Assembly: GCA_019828545.1 (NCBI GenBank)
Contig: JACVRA010000148.1
Location: 310,001-374,000 of the forward strand
Length of the DNA: 64,000 nucleotides
Direction: 5' to 3'
Origin: Paracamarosporium sp. OC-R06-R3
Taxonomy: Eukaryota > Ascomycota > Dothideomycetes > Pleosporales > Didymosphaeriaceae
How positions within the stretch are numbered: position 1 is the stretch's first letter; every line of letters starts with the position of its first letter. Below are positions 9,566 through 42,023 of this stretch, one piece after another. The notes under the pieces were generated by a model. It saw only the letters and a program-made list of their open reading frames with translations, had not been told where the DNA came from and searched no databases. Made by a program: the position numbers and the translations under genes.

Positions 9566-10132
9566 CTAGTCGATTAGCCTCAAATACACACCGCTCGTCG
9601 CCAATTCGTACGTGATATCCGTCGGGGTTGGCCAGCTTCCAACACCCACGGCCTCGAACGCAACACTGTGCACCCCAGCTGGGAGCTGATACGCCTGCCA
9701 TAGCGAGGGGCCCTCTCCTGGCTTTACTGTCGCATCCCCAAATGGTTTCACATAGAATCTACCGAGATGTTGATCACGGTTGTTGGACCCGATGAGATCC
9801 GACGGGGGTGTCCTTGATGAGCTGAAGATATCGACGACGGTATTGTTGTTTACAAGAGAGTCATTGTACCAGAAGCCCACTTTCACCTTTTTGCCAACCC
9901 ATTCTGCTGGGAGATTGAAGACGTGGACCTCGGATGTAGAAGTTTTAAAGTCGATCAGACCCTGGATTTTCGGTATATAGTCGGGAGGAGGGTGGGTGGG
10001 GCTTTGCCTGTAGATGTAGCCTCCAAAGGGTGTAATGATGTTGCCGGAAGGCCAGCGCTTCTCCACGGGGGCAGGAGCCGCAGCAGAAAGACCAACTAGG
10101 CCGATGATGAAGGCTGAGGTAAAGAACTTCAT
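9566..10132 (-). CDS. Secreted protein with Lys-Arg pro-site (copy 1 of tandem pair)
   Basis: 188 aa, single exon. I start at 10132 (MKFFTSAFIIGLVGLSAAAP), a clean signal peptide; the reading frame extends 27 codons upstream but that extension lacks signal features. After the signal comes a short pro-segment APAPVEKR ending in a Kex2-type Lys-Arg, then WPSGNIITPFGGYIYR. The mature part is cysteine-free with alternating beta-like stretches (STSEVHVFNLP, KKVKVGFWYN) and ends VYLRLID. The pattern resembles the But2 C-terminal-like domain of fungal secreted proteins; that assignment is tentative. It shares its layout (KR-[WF]PS, IITP, VYLR at the end) with the gene at 10908. Confidence 0.75.
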   Translation of the reverse strand: MKFFTSAFIIGLVGLSAAAPAPVEKRWPSGNIITPFGGYIYRQSPTHPPPDYIPKIQGLIDFKTSTSEVHVFNLPAEWVGKKVKVGFWYNDSLVNNNTVVDIFSSSRTPPSDLIGSNNRDQHLGRFYVKPFGDATVKPGEGPSLWQAYQLPAGVHSVAFEAVGVGSWPTPTDITYELATSGVYLRLID

Positions 10133-10907
10133 TGCTTTTGATGTGTCCGACTTCTTTGAAAAGGAATTTTTGGAAACTAGCATAAAAACTGAATCACACG
10201 CCCTCAAATACACCTCTCACATTGACCATTTTCCCTCGCGTGAGACCACGCCGAGTAGTAACCTGCATATACGATCCGTATACGAATACGACGCTGCTCA
10301 GCTGCGCCGTTCCTCCAAACGCACCACCAACCACACCCCATCCAAATCGCATCATCCCCGGAAACGGCAATACTGCCAATATTCCCATTGATAATTTGCT
10401 TCGTATGCACATTGGATGGGACGCCCGTGGCGTATGCGTGATCCATTGTTTCTTTGCTATTTCGTTGAGAAGGATTGCGATGACGGTGAGTAATCGTATC
10501 ACGTTTTATTGTTGCCTCTCGGTCGCGGAAGAGGGGATGAGTATTGTGGTAGAGGTTAACTCGGGTCCTTACGTGGCAATCTTGGGTAAACGCGGTTGCT
10601 CTTCGAGAGTACTTGGGTTTCAATACTGCCGTTTCTGTCAGTACGTCGATAACCAGGAACGAAGTAAAGGATCTTCCTTATCAGGTGATGTAGTAGTAGT
10701 AAAAAAACAACTCTCAGTATCGATGACATGATAGTGTGCGTGTGAAATACGGGTTCATCCTATTATTGCATTGCCCCACGAAGGACTGACTACACGCTGC
10801 CCATCCACAACATTGCGTCCACGCTACCAAACACACCAACCGAACATTTCAGCAAGGAGCGACACGAAAGAAAGTAAACAGGCAGGACCTTCCATCAGTT
10901 AAACCCT
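10133..10907. other. Intergenic between tandem secreted-protein genes
   Basis: 775 bp forming the promoter of the 9566-10132 gene and the 3' region of the next. Frames on both strands here have no signature. No repeat is recognised. Confidence 0.55.
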
Positions 10908-11474
10908 CTAATTCCCAACCTCCCTCAGATACACCCCCTCACTCTCCGTATCCCACTGCAACTCCGTCGGATTCTGCCTGAAGATCCCCACAACATTAAA
11001 CGCATACTTTCCCTCCCTCTCAAAAACGAAGCTCTTCCACTGCTGCGGCTCCCCCTCTATCTCCACCGCATCCCCAACGTTCTGTGCAGAAAACGTGCCA
11101 ATATGTATGTCGCGGCCATTGGACGTCTGATCTGGGACGTCGGTCGCAGACGACGGGACGTTGTTGTTTGTGTAGAGGAAGATTGCTTGGATGGGTGGTG
11201 TGGTTTGGTGAGTAGAGTAAAAGAGGACTTGGAATGTTTTTCCGACGTCTGTAGATGTGATTTCGAAGGTGGAGATCGTTTCTATGGAGGAGGCGAAGGA
11301 GGCGATACCAAGGTTGTCCGTAGCGGGCGTCCAGACATTGTTTTGCCAGCGGTGGGTGTAGATGGGGGTTATGATGGGGTCGGAGGGGAAGCGCTTCTCT
11401 AGAGAGAGAGAAGGGGTAGGAGCAGCAGTTGCGAAACTGACCAGGCTGGTAATGAGGGCGAGGGTGAGTTTCAT
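10908..11474 (-). CDS. Secreted protein with Lys-Arg pro-site (copy 2 of tandem pair)
   Basis: 188 aa, single exon, the same length as its tandem neighbour. Signal peptide MKLTLALITSLVSFATAAP, pro-segment TPSLSLEKR with a Kex2-type site, then FPSDPIITPIYTHRW. The mature protein is cysteine-free with regularly spaced beta-like strands (TISTFEITSTDVGKTFQVLF, FVFEREGKYAFNVVGI) and ends GVYLREVGN. Shared architecture with 9566-10132 points to an old tandem duplication; the sequences are now quite divergent. The fold is possibly But2-like, but I cannot confirm this. Secretion is a strong inference, the function unknown. Confidence 0.75.
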   Translation of the reverse strand: MKLTLALITSLVSFATAAPTPSLSLEKRFPSDPIITPIYTHRWQNNVWTPATDNLGIASFASSIETISTFEITSTDVGKTFQVLFYSTHQTTPPIQAIFLYTNNNVPSSATDVPDQTSNGRDIHIGTFSAQNVGDAVEIEGEPQQWKSFVFEREGKYAFNVVGIFRQNPTELQWDTESEGVYLREVGN

Positions 11475-13019
11475 GACGGTGGTTGTAAGAAGCTGTGATC
11501 TTGAAGAAGATCGGAAGTCTATGTTTGATTGAAGGAGGGGATTGCTGTTGAATGATTTTTCTTTCCTCTATAAGTTTCCTCTTTATATATCTCTCTCACC
11601 ACTCCTCGACGTCTCTCAGTCATCTCTCAGCTTCTTCTTAGACCCACCACCAATACGCCAAAAACGGCCTCTCGAGCCATTGTTGTAACCTCAGAACATC
11701 TCCGCCTCCACGGTGGGCTTGTCCCTCAGTCCACTGTCTTCCAGCTTGCTGTTTGTGCACATCTATTCGCTTATTCTTAGAGCCAACCCATTAATACATT
11801 GGGTGGGGTAATGCGTATCCTAAGACCTCCGACCCCCAAATTCAACGCCCTGATGTATTTCTGTTACTCATACTTTCGCACTCTCGTGCGTGGTTCGGTG
11901 CCTCATACAGTTGTTCGTGAGCCATGCATATGGTGGAGGCACAGCTGGTCCCATGATCAGGCTGAAACAACAACGTTCGCGGGCAGGCCGGAAGCATTTG
12001 CTGAATCGGAGTGAAAGAGCGTGTAGTTAGGTATGCTATGTCCTCCGGCAGCTTCTATACGGACCGGTGAACAACAGGCGATGGTGCAACGCAGTTTGTT
12101 AATGGTTTTTACAGTCGGGGAGATGCGCCCGTGTTAGAATTTAGTCAGGCTGACAGTATGGCGTGCAGGTTGATTACTTACATTTTGTTCCGCATGAGGG
12201 TGGAATTGTTTGTGCCAGAATATTGTGCAAAGATCATAAAGACCACGCATTCATTACATCTGAAATCAACATACTGCACGAAATGTAACATCATGCAGCC
12301 GTGGATATCATCATTTAGATGCGATATATCGACAGTTCGTTCCTCGTGACCTGAAACATTGTGCCATCATAGCTTCGTATTATACGGGCATACGTTTTTC
12401 GCCGGGTAAACATAGGATGACGCGACCTCTTGTCGAAAACAGTAGACTGCACGGTTAATACACGTGCAAGATTTGGGCTCGGCAGCTGGAGCTGGGTGGC
12501 ACAGAGCGTGTGTCATGCGGCTGAAGGTAGTGGAGGCTGTGAACACGAGGCAGCTTGTTCGACTTGTAAGCGTGAGGTTCAGGATCGTTCTTCGCTAAGA
12601 ATAATACTGTCACCTCTTTTCCTCTTGTTGGGCTACCGCTCTTCACCCATCCCACATCCCTCGATTGCATTGCTCTCAGATTAGTTTCCACTATGTTCCT
12701 ATGCCAGCATAGTTAGTTTCCTCCTTCGACTTGAGGAAGCATTTGAAGTGTTAATTGAGCCACCTTCGCATTCTGAAGATATTTTGAAGATTGCTTAATG
12801 TCATGATCAATCATAGTTCATACCTAGGTAAAGATTGTTCGTGGTCTATACAAGTGTTTTTGCACGAAAGTCAGATCATCGCCGGATCCTTTGGTTCACC
12901 GTTTCGTACGCCCCCATCAATGCAATGCAAATGTAGCGAGTGTATTCAAATAAATATTTCGGCGCGTGCTGGACTGTTCCGCTCTCTTTTGCCTTCGCCC
13001 TGATCGCACGTCTTCCTCT
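11475..13019. other. Long intergenic region
   Basis: 1545 bp. The first 150 bp include TATA-like TTTATATATC (about 11580), probably the promoter of the 10908-11474 gene. The rest holds only short frames without signatures. Confidence 0.55.
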
Positions 13020-14963
13020 TCAAAGCATGTGTGGGTCGACTTCCACCACTGGTCCATTGTAGCTCTTCTTCGCATATAGCAAGTAGTATCCGATGCTGAA
13101 AGATGCCACGCCTGCTGTAACTACCACAGCCCAGTTCATCTGTGACGCATCCACGACCCTAAAGTTATTTGGCCAGAAGCTGAAGAAGATCAAAAGTAGT
13201 AAGTAGCAACATGCGACGATGTTATTTGCCACGCCTAATGATCCCTTCAGTCTCCATGGTCCCCATCCCAAGCTTCTATCGAGAGTCTCGTCGGCTTGTG
13301 CATTGGAGCTAAAAGCGGTAAGACCCGAGTTCGGGTCGTCCATGTCGCCGCGAAGTCGCCGCCACAAGAGAAGGCCGATCGCAAGGAAATAGGAGATGTA
13401 GAAGCCTTCGAGAACGAGAGAAATCGTTCCGTTGAAGGCAGCATTGTTACCGATGTTGATGAGGGCGAGGAGGGCGGAAAGTGTGGTCACAACGAGGATA
13501 GCAACGACAGGAATGGTTGTACGTTTGTCAATCTGCGCTACGTTAACCAAGTCGAAATACATGAATAATACTCACCATGCTAAGAGCCCGCGCGAACGGC
13601 AATCCGTGATCTCTTGCGAAGGACCATGTCATCCGCGACGCTGCTGCCAGGCAGCCCATTGCACTACAAAACTCGAGAGCTATGATGATAACAGTCATAA
13701 TGATCGCTCCAACAGTGGATCCCGTAGCATACTCGAATATTCGCATGAATAGCGGAGTAGTCGAGGACGAGTCGTTTATCAGTGCTCCAATATCGGGGGC
13801 ACTGAATAGCACCGATATAAGCATGCCAAGAGCGAGACATCCATTGATGCCGAGACTGAGGAGCATTGAGCGTGCGACGTCTGTACTAGCGTTCCTGACT
13901 TCTTCCGACATCTAAGCGCGTTAATGTACAATCTACACGTAATTGGAGCCTTCACTTACATGTACGGCGGAGTCTGTTCCTACGAAAGCCAGAGCATTAC
14001 CCTGTAAACCGATGAAGAAAGCGAATGCAGGCGTGCTCCAACCTCCAAAATTATTGAAAGAGGTGAATATTTCTTTCGCCGAGTGATGAGAAGCTGTCAG
14101 ATAGACCAGCGGTATGAGAATGCCAAAGAATCCAAGAACATGGATGACTAGCACAATCACTTCAATGGTAGGCAGTGCTCCACTGACGAAGACATTAATG
14201 AAGATGCACAGTAATAGGACTGCCCACAAGAGCAGTGTACCGTGCCACAGTTCCCGGTTGTAGTTGCCATGACTGAGAGAGACAAGGCCCAACGTAAGGT
14301 CTGCAACAAAAAAGCATACAGATGTCAACGCAGCGATCCATCCAACGACGGTCAGCCAGCCTGTAGAAGTCAGTTTCCATTTTCGTATAATTAGCATGGA
14401 TGGGATTCAACTCACCAGTAATGTAGCTGAAAAACTTCTTACTTGATCGAGGTGCGAGCAGCGAAACCCAGTGATATTGGCCACCAGCAGTCGGAATAGC
14501 GCTGGAGAGCTCACCTATGGCAATGAAAACCGAGATGTTGCCAAACCATACAAGAAGAAAGCCGTATATGAGGCCCGCAGGACCACCACTTCTTCAGTCA
14601 GCAATGCCGTGCAGGTCGCAGTGCATACACCCACTTTTGAAACCCTATCGAGAACACACTGACAACAATTAGTATATTGAAACGTAATCTTCTACAAGAT
14701 CATACACTAATATACTCTCCCACGTGCACATGAGACCGCAAGACAGTCCCGTCATGCTCACTAGTCCGAAGCGACGCTGATGTTGTTAGGTCGTTTTGCT
14801 TGTCATGGAGAATGTCACTAACCTTCAGCACTTGCTGCTTTCCCACTCGAGCAAGTTCATATCTGTCTCGGTCAAAGCTGGCAGGCTTCGCCTCTGATAG
14901 AGAGCCACCTCTCTGGCGGACACCATCGTCGTCGAGAGTCTGGAACTCCAATGCCTTTTCCAT
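13020..14963 (-). CDS. APC-superfamily amino acid/GABA/choline permease
   Basis: Seven exons (14963-14823, 14776-14706, 14658-14635, 14588-14416, 14360-13960, 13911-13576, 13532-13020) give 552 aa in one continuous frame. It is a plasma-membrane transporter of the fungal GABA/choline permease type. The N-terminal cytosolic part is followed by RRFGLVSMTGLSCGLMCTWE. The hallmark FQNGGPAGLIYGF is only formed when the 24-bp exon 3 is joined to exon 4. Further marks are IGELSSAIPTAGGQYHWV, TGWLTVVGWIAAL, LAFVGTDSAVHMSEEVRNA and ASRMTWSFARDHGLP, with about twelve hydrophobic spans. Substrate cannot be read from sequence. Nothing is broken; the full-length family size is met. Confidence 0.92.
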
Positions 14964-16770: not shown

Positions 16771-18436
16771 CTATACTTTGGAGCCCAGCTCGCCTTTTCT
16801 CAAAACCTCAATCTCATCGCAGCCACTCTCCCTATCTCCACTTCTCCGGTCCTCCCACTCCGCACACACAACCGTAGTCTTCACGATCTTTGCTTGGCTC
16901 CCTGTACTTTCCACCTCCCACCTCCCCTCGCCACCGTGCGCTTCAGCCCTTATTTCCACGTCTACATTGCCATCTGTCCGTTTCGGGCCGCCAGGCAATC
17001 CGCTCGCCGAATTCGCATGGCTCGTGTTCTCGCTCAGCATTGGCAAGAACCGACGTATTGCGCTTTCAGCTTGGCTAGGCCGATGTCGTTTCTCTGGAGA
17101 ATGGACAGTGTGGGAATGGCCGGAGCTGAGCTTGAATGAGGAGGCTTTACTACGGTTGCGGGAGTATCCTAGTTCAGAGGGCGTTCCCCGGCGACGTAGT
17201 TCGTCGGCGCCGTACATGCCTGAAGGGAGCGATTCTAGAAGCGGGCGCAGATATGGAACGCATGACGTGAGGATGGTCACGCATTCGATAACTTGCGCCG
17301 TAAGTGTCCACTTCCACAGCGCGCGAGTGGTATCTGAGTCGTTGAAGGCTGGTGTATACGCCAGTTGAATGGCGGTAGCTATGATGTCACTGCCTATTGT
17401 CAGCATACACAGTATGGTCCCAGGAGATGATTCTTTGTATATGAAGGAGACATACAGTGACCGCGTGCCAAAGAACCCCAAGATTGTGATCTTTTTGCTG
17501 ACGCTCATCTGAAGTGTGAAGATTACATGGACTGGAAAACATATTAAGCACAAGTCGGTGATGATGTTTAGAGCGCCGAAAGAACGCCAAAAGCCTGCCT
17601 AGTTCTTGTCAGTCGATGGCCCAAGCAGACTCTTGACCTCGGCTGACATACCATACTAAGACAGTGAGCTTCTGACCCTATGAACTGCCATGGCTTATGC
17701 GTCCCGCACTGGAAAGCAGCAACAAATTCCGTGATCAAGCCCCACAATGTGATAAAAACCGTTATTATCCATCCAAACTTGCGATGCAAGTTCGAAGCCG
17801 TGAGTATCATGAGTAGCGAGATGATAGACAACTTGGCCAAGGTAAGCGTGGCGATGTAGAGCAATTTGTTCGCATATTCGGCCTGTGAGCATAAGCCTAA
17901 TGTCCAAAAGTGTAAAGAGCACTCCACAGAAATAGGACAGAATTGAAGACGGAGTGGGTTAACATTATGCAAGACGGAAGACTGAATACGAGGTTGTAAG
18001 CACACGTACTTTCTGATACGCCACAATCTGGGCATCCGACAGCAACGACACATCCTTCCCGAGTCCGTTTTCTGTTTGCATGACAACTGCGACCCCGGAG
18101 GCGACGCTCGCCATCTACGCAACCACATCAGCCTCAATATCGTCGCAGAGTCCACACTTTCGATATCTCTGTGCCCCTGTCTTTATCCGCCACTTCATGT
18201 AGAAAGAAAAAAAGAAGCGAACGTACCAGCGCACCGACAACCAAATAATCATCAACATCTATCCTTCTTCTCAAAGCCCTCTTCGTCCCGAGTCTCGTCC
18301 CGACCGCTAGAAAACTCGTAACGAGCAGCACCCACGTAACAACGTCAAGAAACGGGCCCAAATCGCTCTTTGAGCCCGGATGTCGCACCACGATTTCGTT
18401 CACCTCGGCGGGAAAAGCAATCATACTCGCATTCAC
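16771..18436 (-). CDS. Fungal rhodopsin-domain (Pth11-like) seven-helix membrane protein
   Basis: Five exons (18436-18227, 18114-18010, 17882-17652, 17598-17456, 17389-16771) give 435 aa. The order of segments fits the fungal integral membrane rhodopsin domain: FLDVVTWVLLVTSFLAVGTR, DVDDYLVVGALV, an extracellular loop with GLGKDVSLL, YANKLLYIATLTLAKLSIIS, HRKFGWIITVFITLWGLI with FQCG, WRSFGALNIITDLCLICFPV, LGFFGTRSLDIIATAIQL and WTLTAQVIECVTILTSCVPY. The last exon adds a long hydrophilic Ser/Arg tail. Such proteins are often candidate GPCRs, but no ligand or G-protein coupling can be inferred. The exon 4/5 join (CTT GAC) needs the acceptor GGCAG at 17390-17394. Confidence 0.85.
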
Positions 18437-19448: not shown

Positions 19449-19799
19449 TTAGTTGCGTACCTCGACCGGACTGTCCAACTCCGTTTCAATAGTAGGAACG
19501 AGCCGACGATCAACATGATTTGGTTTGGTCAGCTCCGCTTCCACAACCGGCAGGCCCTTTTTGTCCACGTGATGCGGGCCCTCGAACTCTACCTCAAAGG
19601 TAGGCACACTTCTCTTATCAACATGATTAGGCCCCACTGCGACAGAACCGACCGGTGGAACACTGCGATCGACGTGATGTGGTGGTTCGAGGTCATGATG
19701 CCAGTCTGGACGGTCGCGACGGTTGTTGGTAAATACAGGCGCAGCAAGACTGCCAGCAAAAAGCGCGCTCAATGGCGGTAAGAGGACAATGAATCGCAT
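19449..19799 (-). CDS. Candidate RiPP/kexin-processed repeat precursor peptide
   Basis: 116 aa starting at 19799, the ATG of MRFIVLLPPLSALFAGSLAA, a typical signal peptide; the open frame reaches further upstream but that part has no signal. After the leader the protein is built of repeated units of 17-18 residues centred on P-[NH]-H-V-D followed by basic residues: PHHVDRS (40-46), PNHVDKR (57-63), PHHVDKK (75-81), PNHVDRR (93-99), with a degenerate last unit ending PVEVRN. Three units end in a dibasic Kex2-type site; the first has a single Arg. Spacers alternate in type. There is no Tyr and no Cys. The architecture matches dikaritin-type precursors (ustiloxin, asperipin) and other kexin-processed peptides, and a DUF3328 gene lies 563 bp upstream on the same strand. 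The actual product is unknown. Confidence 0.8.
   Translation of the reverse strand: MRFIVLLPPLSALFAGSLAAPVFTNNRRDRPDWHHDLEPPHHVDRSVPPVGSVAVGPNHVDKRSVPTFEVEFEGPHHVDKKGLPVVEAELTKPNHVDRRLVPTIETELDSPVEVRN
19505..19685 (-). repeat. In-frame tandem repeat of the precursor (about 54-bp units)
   Basis: Four copies of the [NH]HVD coding unit, spaced 17, 18 and 18 codons. On the plus strand they appear as ATCAACATGATTTGG (near 19508), GTCCACGTGATGCGG (near 19562), ATCAACATGATTAGG (near 19617) and ATCGACGTGATGTGG (near 19668). NHVD and HHVD units alternate, so the underlying repeat is about 108 bp (two units). Confidence 0.75.
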
Positions 19800-20362
19800 T
19801 TTGGTGGTTGATATTTTGTTGGGAAAATCGAGTGTTATCGAATGATAGAGTGCGCGTAGGGCGCTGGCTTCTGGAAATAACCCGTTCACCGTGTTGAATA
19901 TAGCACGAAGGCATCAAGCTAAAGCCCAGGTTTCGTATAAATCGCGTGTCTACTATCATCGGAAGCAGGCTCCGCTTCGTTGAGACTTGTGCGCATTGCA
20001 TTACGAATCAGCGGTCGCACAACGACCACATCACCATGTCACGTAGCAGCCGATGGTCCGGATTACCAGGTGAGCCAATTTACTTGGGCGAAAGCCAGAA
20101 AATTCAAGCCGAACATAGCAATTTCGGGTGGACGGCTTTATCTGTACGCCCAACAAATTTCGTAGTCGGCGAAAACGGTGATGTTCGCTACTGATTGTAA
20201 CGATGCATTGGGGGCGATGCATTGAGCAGGCAAATGTATACCAATCAAAGGTATGCACTGCCTCAATTTTCCCGATGCCGTATCCAGTCATCCTCCAATA
20301 CATGACACCGTCGAACAGATAATCTCCACCTTTGAAATTGATGAACAAGCGCGTTTCCAATT
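19800..20362. other. Intergenic between precursor and DUF3328 gene
   Basis: 563 bp, expected to contain the precursor promoter and the DUF3328 3' UTR. A 109-codon frame on the minus strand (20031-20360) has no signature and is not accepted. Confidence 0.5.
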
Positions 20363-21309
20363 TCAGAATATCACTCTGTCGTCAAACTCTTTTGGCTCGT
20401 AAGGATTCTTGTGACCATGATACTGGAAATAGGCCTCCATGATGGGCCGATATGGTGAGTTTTGCGGACAGTGACCGAAAAGCTCCAGGGTATTGGTAGC
20501 TTCGTGGTAATCATCAAACTGGTGACAAGCATGCTGATCAGGCCGTGTGGCCCAGGCTTTCAGCTTATTCCAATCGCGGCATTGCCGAAGCTGTCCATCG
20601 CCTACGTGATGAGCAACCGGAGCTGGCATTGGGGTGTCGTCGGCTGTACACATGATGTCCTGCCGCAATCCGTCTAAGCAGTGAAATAGATGACTGAGAG
20701 CAAATGTGCGATTCTCTTGGTTATGTTTCGAAACAATTGCTTTGCGTATGAGTTTCTAGAGAGGAGTGAGCGAGTTTTCAACTTATGGCAATGAAGTCCT
20801 ACCAAGCAATGTAAATCGTGAAAGCCCTTGATATAGTAGATGCTCCGCTCGGTATCCCAAGGGAAGCGTGTAGAAGGCCCAAGACCAACCTGCTTTGCAA
20901 AATTGTCGTGCAAGGATATGGCCATTGGGTTCGTGTCGATCGCATCCCAGGCGGCATTCGTTACTTCGTCACTCATATTGGGGTTCCAGTACTCGGTGTA
21001 AGAATGGAAAGGAACCACAGCGTCGAATGTAATGCCACCTACTATTGTTAGGGAAAATGAAGAGCTGGGACTGAACTACTTGCTGTACTTGGTCCTGCCG
21101 AGATCTTGAGACGCATTCCGAAGGCGATTATTATCAATCGCTAACAGGACGTTGACCACGAGAGACAGCAGGAAAGCTGTTATGCACACCGTGACCGCAA
21201 GCCGAGCATTCATAACTTCTACCTTATCCTCGCGTAGATCTGTGACCTTCTCTTCTGCATCGGTCTCTTCGTCCCCACTCAAAGGTTGATATTGCTGGTT
21301 CATTGCCAT
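20363..21309 (-). CDS. DUF3328 (UstYa-type) oxidase
   Basis: Three exons (21309-21084, 21038-20803, 20755-20363) give 284 aa. UstYa-family proteins are membrane-anchored, probably copper-dependent oxidases that cyclise or oxidise RiPP and other peptide products. Visible: cytosolic N-terminus, one membrane span at residues 37-58, then the family segments TKYSGITFDAVVPFHSYTEY, TRFPWDTERSIYYIKGFH, and both HxxHC motifs, HDLHC (149-153) and HLFHC (176-180). These are followed by LDGLRQDIMCTADDTPMP. All key residues are present, so it should be functional. Intron 1 has a GC donor (A|GCAAGT) with an AG acceptor; no GT donor keeps the frame. It lies upstream of, and on the same strand as, the repeat precursor. 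Confidence 0.93.
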
Positions 21310-22023: not shown

Positions 22024-22839
22024 ATGGGTTCAGTCTCGGATCACAACATGGCGACTCAATACATCGTTAAAGAGGTGAATGCGAGGGCTGAGATGGATGC
22101 CATCATGGATGTCATCTGGGCCGCAAACTACGACCCCTATGACACCTATGCTCAGTTGTTCTTCCCCGTCTTGGGATATACACATTCCGCCCGCGATATC
22201 GCAATCGCTGAGTCGAAGAATCGATTCTGGGAGAACCACCATAACACGCCGACAAGCCACTGGTTCTACGTGGAGGATGTTGCGACAGGAAGTGTTGCCG
22301 GTTGCGCGCAGTGGGAGATACACAACGAGAATCCGTTCCAGAAGGGGCCGCCGTCATTGCGAGCACCGTGGTGGCCAGAGGGGGAGTACCGCGAGTTCTG
22401 CGAGGAGATCTTGAGGCAGGTCTATTTGCCGCGGACGAACTGGATGCGAAAACCACATATGGGTGAGTACTTCCCTCGAGATTCTGTACCTGACTGACAC
22501 ATCTTAGCGCTCAACTGGATGGCTGTGGTCCCAAAGTACCGGCGGAAAGGTATCGGTTCGCTTCTGATGAAGGTCGGTACTTCGCGTGCAGATGAACTAG
22601 GTGTGGAATGCTGGATGGAAGCCTCGTCGATGGGAAAGCTGCTTTACGAGAAGCACAGCTTTCGATCACTTTTCAAGATGCAGTTTGATATGGAGAGGAA
22701 AGACGCGAGCGATGTGTGGAGGAAGTGTGTGCATGAGCTGACACCCACATCCGTTTTTCCCATGTGGAGACCCAAATACGGAATCTGGGAGCTGGAAGGA
22801 GAGCCTATTAAGCTACCCTGGGATCGGGCTGCTGTTTGA
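22024..22839 (+). CDS. GNAT-family N-acetyltransferase
   Basis: Two exons (22024-22462 and 22508-22839) give 256 aa. It transfers an acyl group from acyl-CoA to an amine; the substrate is unknown. The acetyl-CoA site is LNWMAVVPKYRRKGIGSLLM, with the R-x-x-G-x-G core RRKGIG, directly after the splice junction. Upstream are IMDVIWAANYDPYDTY and WFYVEDVATGSVAGCAQWEI, the beta strands preceding the core; downstream are LGVECWMEASSMGKLLYEKH and FRSLFKMQFDM. The ATG at 22024 (MGSVSDHNMATQYIV) is chosen because no ATG lies upstream in frame. It is divergent from the DUF3328 gene and may belong to the same small cluster, but this gene class is common and the link is only positional. Confidence 0.88.
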
Positions 22840-35398: not shown

Positions 35399-38300
35399 CT
35401 AGACAAAGGCCCTGATCGCGTTGGCCACGACTTGTAGCTGTATGACATTAGCCAGACTTTCCTGACATGATGATGTAGGAAGAGAAGAAACAACATACCT
35501 GATCCGTAGCCTTCATAAGCGTGAAGTGATTTCCATCGATCCTTTCGAACGTGAATGGACTGCTACCTAGTAGCCTATCCCACCCATTGGGACCAAAATC
35601 CGTCCTGTTATTCAGCATCCACTTCATGCTCTTGCTCTCATCGCCACGGACTTCTGGACGTGGGCTATTGGGGTACCTGCAGACGCCGTATCTCGCCCAG
35701 ATGGCGAGGACCTTTGGCGCGCGGGACGCCGCGCTGGCGGGTATAGGCTGCGGCTTATACTCATCGAGGGCCTTGATGGTAGCCGAAAAGTGCGGGAGAA
35801 GCCAATCGGGGATCTTGGCGCCATTGTCGCTGCCGAGGAGGCCGATTTCGGCAAAGAAGTCGTGCAGGCGGGAGGGGAGGGGCTCGAGGTCGATGGGGCA
35901 GGGAGAGTCGAGTAGGATGAGAGAGGAGACTGTCTCACCGGCTGCGAGGAGTTGAAGTGCTACTTCGTAGGCGACGACACCGCCAGCGGACCAACCTCCA
36001 AGATGGTAAGGGCCCTTTGGCTGGCGGCGGCGTACTTCCTCCAGGTACATGGTAGCGACACCTGAGATGCCGTTGCTCCATTCCGCGGGACAGGTCACAT
36101 ACGGGCAGTTAATCCCGAATATAGCGACGGAAGAGTCGATGGCAGGGATGCTGGCGTAGGAGGTAGCGGAGCCGGATCCATCAGCAAGCAAGAAAAGAGT
36201 CTTCTTGGCAGTACGGGGCTTCCCTTGAATGAGAATAGAGACTGCGCGGCGAACTGGGCCTGACGAAGTAGCCTTGGAGCTTGGCTTGCCCGACAACTTC
36301 TTGGGCGCTTCTTTGGCAGGCTTTGGGGCTTCCTTCTTGGGACTGAGGAACTCGGCGATGGCGTCGAAGGAGGAGTGGGTCAAGAAGAAGTCTGATTCGA
36401 GTTCAATCTCAGCCTTTTCTCTGAGGACACCGCAGAGGGTCATGTTCATGAGCGAGTCGATTCCGAGCGACAAGAGGTCGTTACATCCGACGACATCCTC
36501 TAGGGGAACACCCATCTCTTCGGAAATCGTCTCAACGAAAAGTTGAAGTAGATTACCCCTGTTGGAGGGTGTGCTGAGCAGTTCAAAATCGGGAGGGGTA
36601 GCAATAGCAGGTGTGGGTAATTCATCAGCCGATGTGTCATCGTCAATAACAAGGGCAGGCGCTTCCTCGAACGTAGTACCTTCACTGACATAGGTTCTAT
36701 ACAGGTAGGCCTTGAGCCCTGCGATAGTTTCGCAGTCCGTGAACGTGTGCGGAGGAAGGTCAAGGTCAACAGCTTCCCTGAGCTTACCTAGAATCTGGAG
36801 AGACAACAAGGAGTCAATTCCCAAGTTCGAGAACTCGCAGTCATCACCAAGTTCTTCTTCAGAAAGCTCGGACTCAGCAGAGATCACAGCCATAACCTTA
36901 GACACGATAGTAGAGGCAGAGGTGGCGGCGGGATTGACGAGCTTGGCGGTGATGGCGGTATTCAGTTTTCCGGCATTGACGGCGGCAGTGACCACCTTGG
37001 GAGCGACGGTGGTCTTCGCTACGACTACTGGCCGGGATGTAGGGGTGGGCTTGAGGACAGCAACAGGTATAGGGACAGCGGCAGCGACAGGCTTGGGAAT
37101 AGTAGGAGATACGCCTTGCGGTGGGAGGAACGTGTTGAGCACGGTGCGAGGGATGCGCTGGAACTTGAGTCCAGCACAAATACCGATGACTTTGCCACTC
37201 TCGAAAATGTAAACATCGCCAGCAATGACGTTGCTCTCACCCGTCGGCTGCATCTTGACATACGCGTTATAAGTCTTGTCCTTGGAAAGCGGCTCCGCAA
37301 ACTTGATGGCCTTCCAGCCGTGAGAGATGTGAACGAACTTGCTAGTGTCAATGGCGGTGGTGCCGTTTAAGATGAAACCACCCAAGTGTACAAGACTATC
37401 AATCCAGAAGGGGCTAACGTGGTAGTTTCCATCTTTTTCAGTGGTCTGGAACTTGACGGTGGAAGTACCTTCGAAGTTGGCTCCGTCGACAATAACCTCT
37501 TCCATGCCCTGGAAAGGAGCTTTGTAATCAACGAACATGGAGAAGAGCCTGTAGGCAAGACCGCGGGATATCTTGTCTGCTTGATTTTTGGCCAGTCTCT
37601 CCTTGAGAGTTTCGATACGAGCCTCGAGGAGGTAAGAAATCGAGTTCCAGCTGTCACTCCATGCCGCAGGGTCCTCATATGTAACAACACAGTTCGCGTG
37701 GAGATTGACCTGATTGTTGGCATTTGTGTCAATGCTCTGGAAACGAAGCTTGATCTCACCCTTGGTCAGGTCCACATCGGCAGTGACTTCCAAAATGCGA
37801 CCTTCGGCATCATTCTTGAGGATGAGAGGCTTGAATACTTCCATGTCGTTACAGCTGATACCAGGAACAGCGGCTCCAGGGTTGATTTCCTTCCAGGCAT
37901 AGTCACCGAGCGTAAGTGCCATGTCAGCGTAGATGGAGGACGGGCAGAGACTGGTGTTGTTGACCTGATGACCAGACACAGCAGCGCGGAAGACGGGGTC
38001 GCTCACATCGGATTCTGTAACGATCTTACCGGTAGGACCATCATAGTTCTCCGAGACGATCCTATGGACAGAGCTAGTTGAAAGCTTGGATTGAGCAGGA
38101 GCAGCGGGCTGCACACTCTCGATCTTCTGGACTGTGGTGCGGGGCTCGGTCTTGTGCAGGCACCAATCGTTCACGTACTGGATCCAGTAGTTCTTATTGT
38201 CGAAGCTATAAGTCGGCAGGCTGAGCAGCTGGTGGGCAGAATCAAAGTCACGGTGGAACTCGCCAAAGTCAATGGGCACACCTGTGGTGTGCAAAGAGAT

Positions 38301-41300
38301 TAGAGACTTCGAAAGGCTCTTCCAAGAGTCCTCGCTCTTGTTGAGGGAGGCCACGGTATTGATAGATGGCGAAAAGGTGTTCTTTACCATTCCAGAACAG
38401 ATAGGATGCGGTCCGACCTCAACGAAGATGGTTTTATCGCCAACGAAGCCTTCTTGCTTGGCGGTCTTGAGAGCCTCAACGAAGTTGACTGTCTCCCTCG
38501 CGTGGCGGCAAAGATAGGAGATGTTGAAAACGCCCTGGTCTTCAACAACCTCACCAATCAGTGGCGCAATGACTGGGATAGTAGGAGTGTTGAACACAAC
38601 ACCGCCTGCGAGCTCCTCAAAGGTATCGAGAATAGGCTCGATCTGAGCAGAGTGGAAGGCATACGGAAGGTTGAGACGTGTGGTCTTGACCCCGTTCTGC
38701 ATCAGGATTGCGGTCGCAGAATCGATTTGCTTTACGCTACCTGCAACAACCGTTTCGGTAGGTGAGTTCAAGCAAGCAATTTCATACTGCGAGCCTTGCA
38801 GAGTAGCTTTAACATCCGAAGCCGAAGCTTTGGCAACCAGCATAGCATGTGTGTTCTCAGTACATTTCTCCAACAGAAGGCGTGCTCGGGTTCCCACGAG
38901 ATAGATTGTGTCTTCCATGGTGAGAACACCTGCTGCATAGAGAGCAGCATACTCTCCCAGGCTGTGGCCTGTGACGACTGAAGGCTTCACGCTCCACGAC
39001 TTCCACAAATGCAGCAAGGCAATCTGCACAGATACCAAGGCAAGCTGGGTCTCAAGGGCGGTCAATCCCTCTGTAGGAGTGCCATCCAGCGCAGGGAGGA
39101 AAGAACTAAAACCTTGAGCTTGCGCTAATCGATCAAGATGGAGGATAGTGGATCGGAAGATCTTGGATTGTTCAAGGAGAGTTTTGCCGAGACCAGTGTA
39201 GTATGCTCCTTGTCCAGTGAAAACGAATGCCGTCTTAGGAGTGGCCGAGGGCATAGGTGAGAAATTGCCTCCATCCGCCTTTTCCAAAAGAAGCGTTTTC
39301 AATTCGTCGAGGTTAGACGCAGCCACACCGATGCGGTAGTTGTGGTGCATACGACGCGCGGTCAAAGTGTAAGACAGGCTTGCGAAGTCTTCCGCCGAAG
39401 CATTCGCCGCAAAGGCAGCGATCGTCTTGGCTTGTCGTGCCAAAGAGGAGAGCGATTTGGCGGAAGTTACGAATGGCAAGTATGTGCGAGGGTCGGTACC
39501 TAGAGGCTTGGTCCGAGCAGGCCCGTCGCGGATCAGCATAGCGGTGTTACCACCAGCGGCACTGAAGTTATTGAGAAACACGGTTCTGTCCTTGCCTTCA
39601 GGCCTGGGGTAAGCAGTGTTTTCGAATGGCACTTTGATGTTGCGGACGACCAGGTCGGGGAAACCGGGGTTGATTTCGTGCTTGATACCAACGTGCTTAG
39701 GAATAGTGTTCTTCTGTAGCATGAGAAGCACTTTGATGAGTGCTCCAATACCAGCAGCGGCTTCACCATGACCAATGTTCGACTTCACCGCTCCGATATG
39801 CAGAACCTTTTTCGGATCCGTGCCACGAGCATGCTCAGGGGCAAAGACACTCGTAACCGAGCTAATTTCAGCCATGTCACCAGCCTGGGTACCTGTTCCG
39901 TGCATCTCAACGTAGCTGACATCTAAGGGATCGACGCCGGCTTCGTGAAGGACGCTCTGGTAGAGGTAAGCCTGGTTTCCAGCGTGAGGGTGGGTGATGG
40001 AAATGGCATCGGCGGAATGATTAGTAGCAGTACCTAGGATAACACCCAGAATGTTGTTCTTGTCAGCAATAGCGTCGTCCAATCGTTTCAACACAACGGA
40101 ACCGACACCATCAGCTCGACAGTATCCATCCGCCTTGCTATCCCAGGTCTTGCAAGAGCCTGTCTTAGAAAGAAACTGTCCACGGCTGAGGCCCGCAAAG
40201 ATATCAGGCGCACTAATGATATTCGCACCGCCTGCAATCGCGGTATCGCACTCGCCAGACCTCAAAGTCGAGCATGCAATCTGGATCGCCGCCATACTGG
40301 AAGAGCAAGCGGTGTCGACACTGTAGCTAGGGCCACGGAAACCAAAGTAGTAGCTGATACGACCAGGGGCAAACGCTCGCATACCCCCGGGAATGAAGTA
40401 TGTGCCAATGTTTTGCGCTGTATTGACCTCACGCCAATCGTCCGACGTTTGGCCGTAGAATGTACCAACACGGTCTTGCTGTGACGATGGTGTTGAGTTG
40501 AGGACAAAACCAGATTGTTCAAGCGCTTCATATGCCGTGACGAGAGCTAAACGGTGTATGGGATCAGTTTGGGTAGCTTCAGTAGGCGACATGTGGAAGA
40601 AGCGGGCGTCGAATAGGCCAGGTTCCTCGATGAATGCACCGAACGGTGTGTGGCTAGTGTTGTTGATCTTTCCAGTTGGGTCGTAGTGAGTCTCCGGATC
40701 GAAGCGATCTTTAGGAATCCTCTTGTGCATGTCTCTGCCCTGCACCAGGACATCCCAAAGCGCTTCGACATCAGGTGCACCGGGAAAGCGACCAGACATT
40801 CCGACAATGGCAATACTCGACGTATTTTGGACATGCTTCGAGCCAGTGTCAGCGTTTGACCACTGACTTAAATCTTGAAGCGTAATCGACTTGCCTTCAG
40901 ACTGAATTGCAGTCTGCAGGCTCTTAGTCGCTTGGGATGCTTCGAAACCGGTTAGTGCCGCAGCTTGCGAGAGCAGCGGGTCGCTTGCAACAGCCTTCGT
41001 GATCGAGGTCCATTGCACCGGCTTGCGGAGAATATCGGTAACGGCATCTGTGAAGAGGACGCTTGCGGTTACGGCTTCTGAGCGCTTTCCAGTGCTGGCG
41101 GAAAAGTTTGCCCTCCTGGGAGCGGGAATCTGGTTTAAGGCATCGGACCGTGACTGCATCACTTCTGAAACTTGCGCTTCGCTGTAGATATCGGCCACAT
41201 GCCAGAGTCCCACACTCTCTATGTCTTGCACGGCTGGAGATTGGAAAACCTTGGAGCTCTGCTTGAGCCAATCAAGGCGTGCAGGGTTCCCGTTGATCGT

Positions 41301-42023
41301 GCTTGCAGATTCGCTAATAGTCGAGATGAAGGCACGGTTGGTCACTGGAAGATTCTGGTCACCTTGTTAGATATTCGTCTCATTAGCTGTTTTGAAACTT
41401 ACTGCTGCTTCCTGGAGGCTCTGGAGCTCCGCCTGGAGTTCTTCGAAAGCAACTGGTACAACCAAGCTCCAGCTAGCGTCCGACTCACCAGTACTCCGGG
41501 CTGGGATCGAATATTTCTCTACTACTGCTCCCGTTCGGAATGCCAATCGCACGGATTCTACAGCAATGTCGGGTAAATCGATGATGTTCGCTGCGCAAGC
41601 AACGGCAGCAGCAGCCAGCTGGCCAAGGCCAGTCCCGACGAGAAGGTCATCTGTCGTGTCAAGGGTGTAATTGTTCTGCTCATGGTGGCTGCAGGCCCAA
41701 AGTCAGTAATCTACACCATCTGCAATAGGTCGTTGAACACACCCGATGAAGTTGACCAACTCAGCAATCACCAATAGTGCGCTGGAAACTTCCACACGCT
41801 GGATTCTGGAGGCAGCATGTCGCTCGCTCAGATCGAATACGCTGTTGAAGGGCGGTATCTGATTCCTAACATCCCTGGGAAGATTCCATACTTCTGCCCT
41901 GAGGGCGGAGTATGCTTTCTCGAGGAAGGACTTGACAAGTACGGTCTTTTTCTTCGCTTCGTGCGCTCGTCGAATAAGACCTCGAGTATCTGGTAGTTGG
42001 TCCGGAAACAAAGAAACAGACAT
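35399..42023 (-). CDS. Non-reducing polyketide synthase SAT-KS-AT-PT-ACP-ACP-TE
   Basis: Exons 42023-41743, 41688-41403, 41354-35499 and 35437-35399 give 2153 aa. It builds an aromatic polyketide from acetyl/malonyl units. Order: SAT (about 1-350); KS from about 369 with DTACSSS (Cys-539), MHGTGT (His-674) and KSNIGH (His-718); AT with GHSLGE (Ser-987); product template with His-1318 and Asp-1508; two ACPs, GIDSL with Ser-1704 and Ser-1823; TE/Claisen cyclase with GWSAGG (Ser-1978) and the late GNHFTLM. The SAT motif reads G-T-G-L-G at 112-116, so Gly-114 replaces the usual Cys of GxCxG. The last exon (LQVVANAIRAFV) restores a normal TE end. The TE linker (DFGPNGWDRLLG) resembles the naphthopyrone/THN/cercosporin synthase group. 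Product unknown. Confidence 0.97.

Follow-up and report, generated by a model that had tools for sequence, protein, structure and literature searches.

The window analysed here, a stretch of 64,000 nucleotides of the genome of Paracamarosporium sp. OC-R06-R3 (C37:310001-374000, in a genome of 43.09 Mb and 337 contigs), contains an oxidase gene of the UstYa/DUF3328 family (PF11807) and a gene for a Kex2-processed repeat protein (KEP), located on the same strand and separated by 563 bp, the oxidase gene being upstream in transcription. A DUF3328 protein with two HxxHC motifs close to a repeat precursor is the association by which dikaritins are recognised, and both the intact gene pair reported in the first-pass annotation and its designation as a dikaritin-type core are borne out by the present analysis. 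The coordinates of both genes, of their main features and of the neighbouring genes are given in Table 1.

Table 1. Features of the precursor/oxidase locus and of its neighbours, in positions of the window
Feature	Position	Strand	Basis
KEP precursor gene	19449..19799	-	single open frame, no intron needed
Probable signal peptide, residues 1 to ~20, MRFIVLLPPLSALFAGSLAA	19740..19799	-	sequence and hydropathy measure
Repeat motif 1, PHHVD-R (single Arg)	19665..19682	-	coordinates derived from residue numbers
Repeat motif 2, PNHVD-KR (Kalmusia: PNYVE-KK)	19611..19631	-	translation and alignment to Kalmusia homologue
Repeat motif 3, PHHVD-KK	19557..19577	-	translation and alignment to Kalmusia homologue
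Repeat motif 4, PNHVD-RR	19503..19523	-	translation and alignment to Kalmusia homologue
UstYa/DUF3328 (PF11807) oxidase gene, 3 exons, 284 aa	20363..21309	-	Pfam, alignment, spliced translation
UstYa intron 1, GC-AG, 45 nt, contains CTAAC	21039..21083	-	in register with Karstenula relative
UstYa intron 2, GT-AG, 47 nt	20756..20802	-	spliced translation, alignment
HxxHC motif 1, HDLHC	20806..20820	-	alignment; coordinates counted by hand
HxxHC motif 2, HLFHC	20678..20692	-	alignment; coordinates counted by hand
GNAT acetyltransferase gene, divergent neighbour beyond the oxidase	22024..22839	+	Acetyltransf_7 in 22519-22839, E 9e-07
Fungal rhodopsin-domain membrane protein	16771-18182		Pfam
Amino-acid permease, nearest transporter seen, ~5 kb from the precursor	13020-14406		Pfam

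The precursor gene is intact and translates into 116 aa without any Tyr. Its N-terminus is hydrophobic (2.17 by a simple hydropathy measure), and this leader, which ends AA-AP, is probably a signal peptide. The P-x-H-V-D motif occurs in four copies (residues 40-44, 57-61, 75-79 and 93-97) that are followed, in order, by R, KR, KK and RR, in agreement with the first-pass description of a secreted-type, Tyr-free repeat protein whose P-[NH]-H-V-D repeats mostly end in dibasic sites (three of the four, the first one ending in a single Arg). Every unit except the first opens with x-[VL]-P, and the last, fifth unit is degenerate and ends SPVEVRN. Pro, His, Val and Asp are conserved between the repeats, Phe and Trp are not; Asp is accompanied by a His pair in two of the repeats and by one His in the remaining two. 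These repeats exceed chance, as P.HVD[KR], found four times in the protein, never came up twice or more when the mature region was shuffled 200000 times, and the similarity between the segments bounded by dibasic sites was matched in only 7 of 20000 within-segment shuffles. These segments measure 35, 18 and 18 residues and all contain P-x-H-V-D, the longest consisting of two repeats split by the single Arg. With at least three tandem repeats of at least eight residues between KR, KK, RK or RR sites, the protein has the repeat structure of a KEP. The computed [M+H]+ values of its plain peptides are 1530.791 for SVPPVGSVAVGPNHVD, 1825.839 for SVPTFEVEFEGPHHVD, 1717.912 for GLPVVEAELTKPNHVD, 1911.007 for LVPTIETELDSPVEVRN and 2001.895 for DRPDWHHDLEPPHHVD.

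The oxidase was assigned by a PF11807 match of 98.3 bits (cut-off 25, E 7.8e-28). Its first intron combines a GCAAGT donor, an AG acceptor and, near the 3' end, CTAAC, the usual fungal branch site. GT donors were dropped in favour of this GC-AG intron because it keeps the reading frame aligned with that of the related proteins; an intron of this kind could escape automatic gene callers. The H, H and C of both HxxHC motifs are invariant in all 38 aligned sequences, the window's UstYa included. A model predicted for the Karstenula relative (38 sequences, mean pLDDT 72.2) displays a long N-terminal helix (residues 34-65), whose hydrophobic counterpart in the window's UstYa is predicted to be of the kind expected for a membrane anchor, and places the two motifs (148-152 and 175-179 in alignment numbering) near the starts of helices 145-164 and 173-190. 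Solved structures were retrieved neither by sequence (E <=1) nor by fold with the model of the Karstenula relative (E <=0.001). The closest paralogues in the same genome share at most 46% identity over short stretches and 37% over the longest one, and the oxidase is single-copy in its genome.

The two genes differ in their apparent distribution. Relatives of the oxidase form 80 protein clusters at E <=0.001, 79 of which are below 1e-30, the nearest being from Karstenula, Bimuria and Paraphaeosphaeria; the named genera mostly show 51-84% identity over the aligned part, and presumably most of them belong to the Pleosporales. Kalmusia is not among the genera named, one name being shown per cluster, and no relative was present in the viral and prokaryote contig collections. 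For the precursor, a single homologue was found, in Kalmusia sp. IMI 367209 (P0001, 58% identity, E 2.8e-36); Kalmusia and Paraphaeosphaeria are both Didymosphaeriaceae (Pleosporales). The searches, which retrieved 22 candidates and then 1527 with both known precursors as queries, reach annotated proteins sharing exact 5-residue words, and within these limits no homologue was found among the 22 + 1527 candidates in Karstenula, Bimuria or Paraphaeosphaeria, the genera with the nearest oxidases. The homologue search proposed in the first-pass annotation was thus productive to the extent of one homologue, and the wide occurrence of the repeat protein away from DUF3328 genes, which would have spoken against the proposed pairing, was not observed in these searches. 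A second, weak match of the precursor in the Paracamarosporium genome (C331, 38% over 43 residues) was taken as a chance match given its E value of 0.0755.

In the Kalmusia homologue the four basic sites are placed identically, the first being again a single Arg, and the last unit shows the same degeneration. The second repeat of the homologue carries Tyr where the other repeats carry His, so that an oxidisable aromatic ring is kept. This exchange is a hint that the residue may be oxidised; being a single case, it could also be due to chance. An extension at the C-terminus such as the Kalmusia gene model has is at most weakly suggested: the DNA located 3' of the window precursor resembles it with a score of 26 in another frame, as against 18 and 25 for the two remaining frames.

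The significance of the pairing was evaluated at the scale of the genome, where PF11807 has 75 exon-wise matches, grouped by hand into about 55 UstYa genes, several of them clustered (C163, C50, C260). By another counting method, a survey published in 2020 gives 9399 DUF3328 genes in 1461 strains, i.e. about 6 per strain (PMC7329392). With about 55 genes in 43.09 Mb, a random position has a probability of roughly 0.15% of lying within 600 bp of one of them, and same-strand adjacency at 563 bp is unlikely to have arisen by chance. Partners were also sought in 20 regions around the best-scoring of the ~55 UstYa genes and in the window, together 257,554 bases with 102 signal-like ORFs, using a repeat score and thresholds devised for the present analysis. 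Repeat precursors were found in four of the 20 regions and in the window, with scores of 2.44 to 5.86 (5 of the 102 ORFs at >=2.4); the remaining signal-like ORFs of the UstYa regions scored at most 1.6 or had too few segments for scoring. The control consisted of 39,604 bases and the rest of the window, and none of the 18 signal-like ORFs in the 39,604 bases scored above 1.33. These five precursors suggest that UstYa genes of this genome fairly often have such a partner. The window precursor has the least similar repeats of the five (2.44 versus 2.94 to 5.86).

The precursor of L026 (G000:C241:381200-391100, ORF from 1592, minus strand), which a further UstYa gene neighbours at a distance of about 3 kb, is made of FPTWIKR / FPDWIKR units, in which the aromatic residues are Phe and Trp; it is, with the window precursor, one of the two Tyr-free proteins among the five. 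The L013 precursor (G000:C200:16800-23900, ORF from 3335, plus strand) has near-identical QWYDLTYIDKR units and lies between two UstYa matches, and that of L023 (G000:C260:33600-43500, ORF from 3269, minus strand), beside a UstYa match, contains many near-identical TEFAPWYRATNILPASDEKR units, a unit also given as TEFAPWYRATNILPASD. The fourth, L024, also near a UstYa gene, has two clear repeats only.

The GNAT, rhodopsin-domain and permease genes are neighbours of the pair, and their membership of the locus is only a candidate one. The first frame of the GNAT gene (22024-22497) matches no Pfam family. The first-pass annotation had seen neither of two partners known from ustiloxin, tyrosinase and methyltransferase, and neither came to light here: no tyrosinase was found on contig C37, against at least 39 exon-wise matches elsewhere in the genome, and no methyltransferase was detected by Pfam in a selection of 25 ORFs or exons from the window, a scan that a small or intron-split gene could escape. 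The same 25 ORFs or exons gave no peptidase or metal-uptake family, and the PF11807 matches listed for C37 are two exons of the window's UstYa, with no further DUF3328 gene among them. At a distance of 14 kb, a polyketide synthase frame (35448-41366, minus strand) comprises KS, AT, a dehydratase/product-template-like region, two ACPs and a thioesterase, with a SAT just under cut-off; it may be read as non-reducing and is probably unrelated to the RiPP locus. Two adjoining frames on the minus strand (9566-10216 and 10908-11567) encode secreted proteins without Pfam family that have a leader ending EKR followed by similar starts, and are apparently related to each other.

On the basis of these genes and their conservation, we consider it probable that the window holds a minimal two-gene RiPP locus of the Kex2-repeat/UstYa (dikaritin) type, in which the P-x-H-V-D block would be oxidised by UstYa. 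The precursor would enter the secretory pathway, as its leader suggests, and would be cut at the basic sites by Kex2 and then Kex1, a step suggested by the presence of these sites and by their retention in Kalmusia. This cleavage would yield four to five different peptides of 16-17 residues, most of them ending P-[HN]-H-V-D, and UstYa, presumably membrane-anchored and copper-dependent by family, would oxidise this C-terminal block. Copper dependence is described for the DUF3328 enzymes, some of which halogenate or hydroxylate (PMC12874468).

Two chemistries could be envisaged. Pro, Val or Asp might be desaturated or hydroxylated, in the manner of PhomYc, PhomYd and PhomYe, to which gene inactivations are reported to trace the desaturated Ile, Asp and Pro of phomopsin (PMC10880069). 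Alternatively, a side-chain crosslink might be formed in which the conserved His, replaced by Tyr in one Kalmusia repeat, is redox-active; Tyr, Trp or His can play this role in plant copper cyclases (PMC12874468), and His crosslinks in RiPPs are relatively rare but known (PMC10206099). The first-pass annotation had reasoned that, Tyr being absent, crosslinking must involve other side chains such as His, Phe or Trp. This necessity is not supported, as members of the UstYa family are also reported to desaturate, hydroxylate or chlorinate (PMC10880069), and since desaturation fits the conserved Pro, Val and Asp as well, such a crosslink is one of two readings. The balance is in favour of some oxidative modification of the peptides by the window's UstYa, the two chemistries being given no firm ranking. 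The more precise proposal that UstYa closes a macrocycle between the His of P-x-H-V-D and a C-H of Val, Pro or Asp appears unlikely. If true, it could provide the first His-crosslinked fungal RiPPs, several of them from one precursor; no such fungal product is reported in the titles and abstract openings of the papers listed from a literature comprising few subscription journals.

Among the alternatives, the one that best withstands the evidence is that the precursor gives rise to plain linear secreted peptides, signals or others, while UstYa acts on something else. The oxidase is much more widely found than the precursor, found outside the window in Kalmusia only, so that it could serve another substrate; such an unequal spread would be accounted for by a conserved oxidase whose partner changes fast, and equally by an oxidase with another main substrate. 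Moreover, among the 7878 KEPs of the 2020 survey (Umemura), 6120 have no nearby DUF3328 gene (PMC7329392), and mushrooms are documented to make KEP peptides that are linear and little modified (PMC9769878). However, the same-strand adjacency at 563 bp is hardly expected by chance and pairs of precursor and UstYa recur in the same genome. In the survey itself, 1758 KEPs are accompanied by a DUF3328 gene within a distance of 15 genes, with a peak at the adjacent position (PMC7329392). A role as the Pleosporales alpha pheromone was ruled out, since its motif PYG[L/M]P[I/V]G differs from the repeats (PMC6339444). We regard the linear-peptide explanation as rather unlikely. It is far less probable that the peptides, oxidised or not, serve to bind a metal such as copper outside the cell through their His-His-x-Asp arrangement: a His pair or a single His does stand with Asp in each of the four repeats, and noursin, a bacterial His-crosslinked RiPP, binds copper (PMC10206099), but the scan of 25 ORFs or exons of the window revealed no metal-uptake family. 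A decaying or orphan relic that has lost its expression or processing, as the divergent repeats, the monobasic site and the degenerate last unit might suggest, is also highly improbable, because the Kalmusia protein, 58% identical, has kept this site and this unit, which speaks for selection.

The interest of the probable two-gene RiPP locus lies less in the absence of Tyr as such, which the first-pass annotation had put forward as distinctive. Among the repeats of the 1758 DUF3328-accompanied KEPs, Y is present in 65.6% and absent in 34.4% (PMC7329392); these counts, together with the second Tyr-free precursor of L026, make the Tyr-free state unexceptional, and the ring of victorin is likewise closed through residues other than Tyr. 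With one oxidase, one intronless precursor, predicted masses and oxidase relatives across the Pleosporales, the locus would represent a convenient test case for the action of UstYa enzymes on Tyr-free substrates, which make up about one third of the repeats encoded close to such genes (PMC7329392).

Compared with described systems, the locus departs from dikaritins in the narrow sense (Ding), which comprise a precursor, a tyrosinase, a methyltransferase, several DUF3328 genes and a transporter or peptidase (PMC12048977), in that no tyrosinase and no second DUF3328 gene were found on its contig, and its precursor does not contain the Tyr (YxI) core of the ustiloxin/phomopsin type. With phomopsin it shares a Kex2 repeat precursor (PhomA) and oxidases of the UstYa family (the PhomY proteins), and the PhomA stretch YVIPID, ending Pro-Ile-Asp, bears a loose likeness to P-x-H-V-D. 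Phomopsin differs in its Tyr-Ile ring, its tyrosinase and its five DUF3328 genes, whereas the window precursor has no Tyr and the contig has no tyrosinase found and one DUF3328 gene among the matches listed. Asperipin-2a also relies on a KEP and a single DUF3328 gene (PMC7329392), but its ring is closed via Tyr side chains (PMC9233826). Victorin, a KEP-derived RiPP of Cochliobolus (Dothideomycetes), has a ring between Phe and Leu without Tyr and differs from what is seen here in being chlorinated (PMC9233826). For His, the parallel is with the moroidin-type plant burpitides, whose copper-dependent cyclases are able to crosslink this residue (PMC10206099, PMC12874468); these are BURP-domain enzymes, a family other than UstYa.

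The closest likeness by description is with KEP types G-3 and G-8 of the 2020 survey, which, like the window locus, associate a secreted Kex2 repeat protein having di-His beside Pro with a nearby DUF3328 gene, in 57 of 64 cases for G-3 and 45 of 49 for G-8 (PMC7329392). These two types and P-3 (Trp and Pro) are separated there from the Y-containing types, and the di-His content is 5.7% with DUF3328 and 3.9% without, values which the paper calls similar (PMC7329392). The window precursor may belong to G-3 or G-8. However, G-8 spans 18 genera, with Paraphaeosphaeria, Periconia, Pyrenophora and Bipolaris among them (PMC7329392), as against one detectable homologue of the window precursor and none found in Paraphaeosphaeria, which argues against this identity. 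The precursor/oxidase pair is new in its sequence, while the type of system to which it belongs is an established one, the initial observation being confirmed and its interpretation partly supported.
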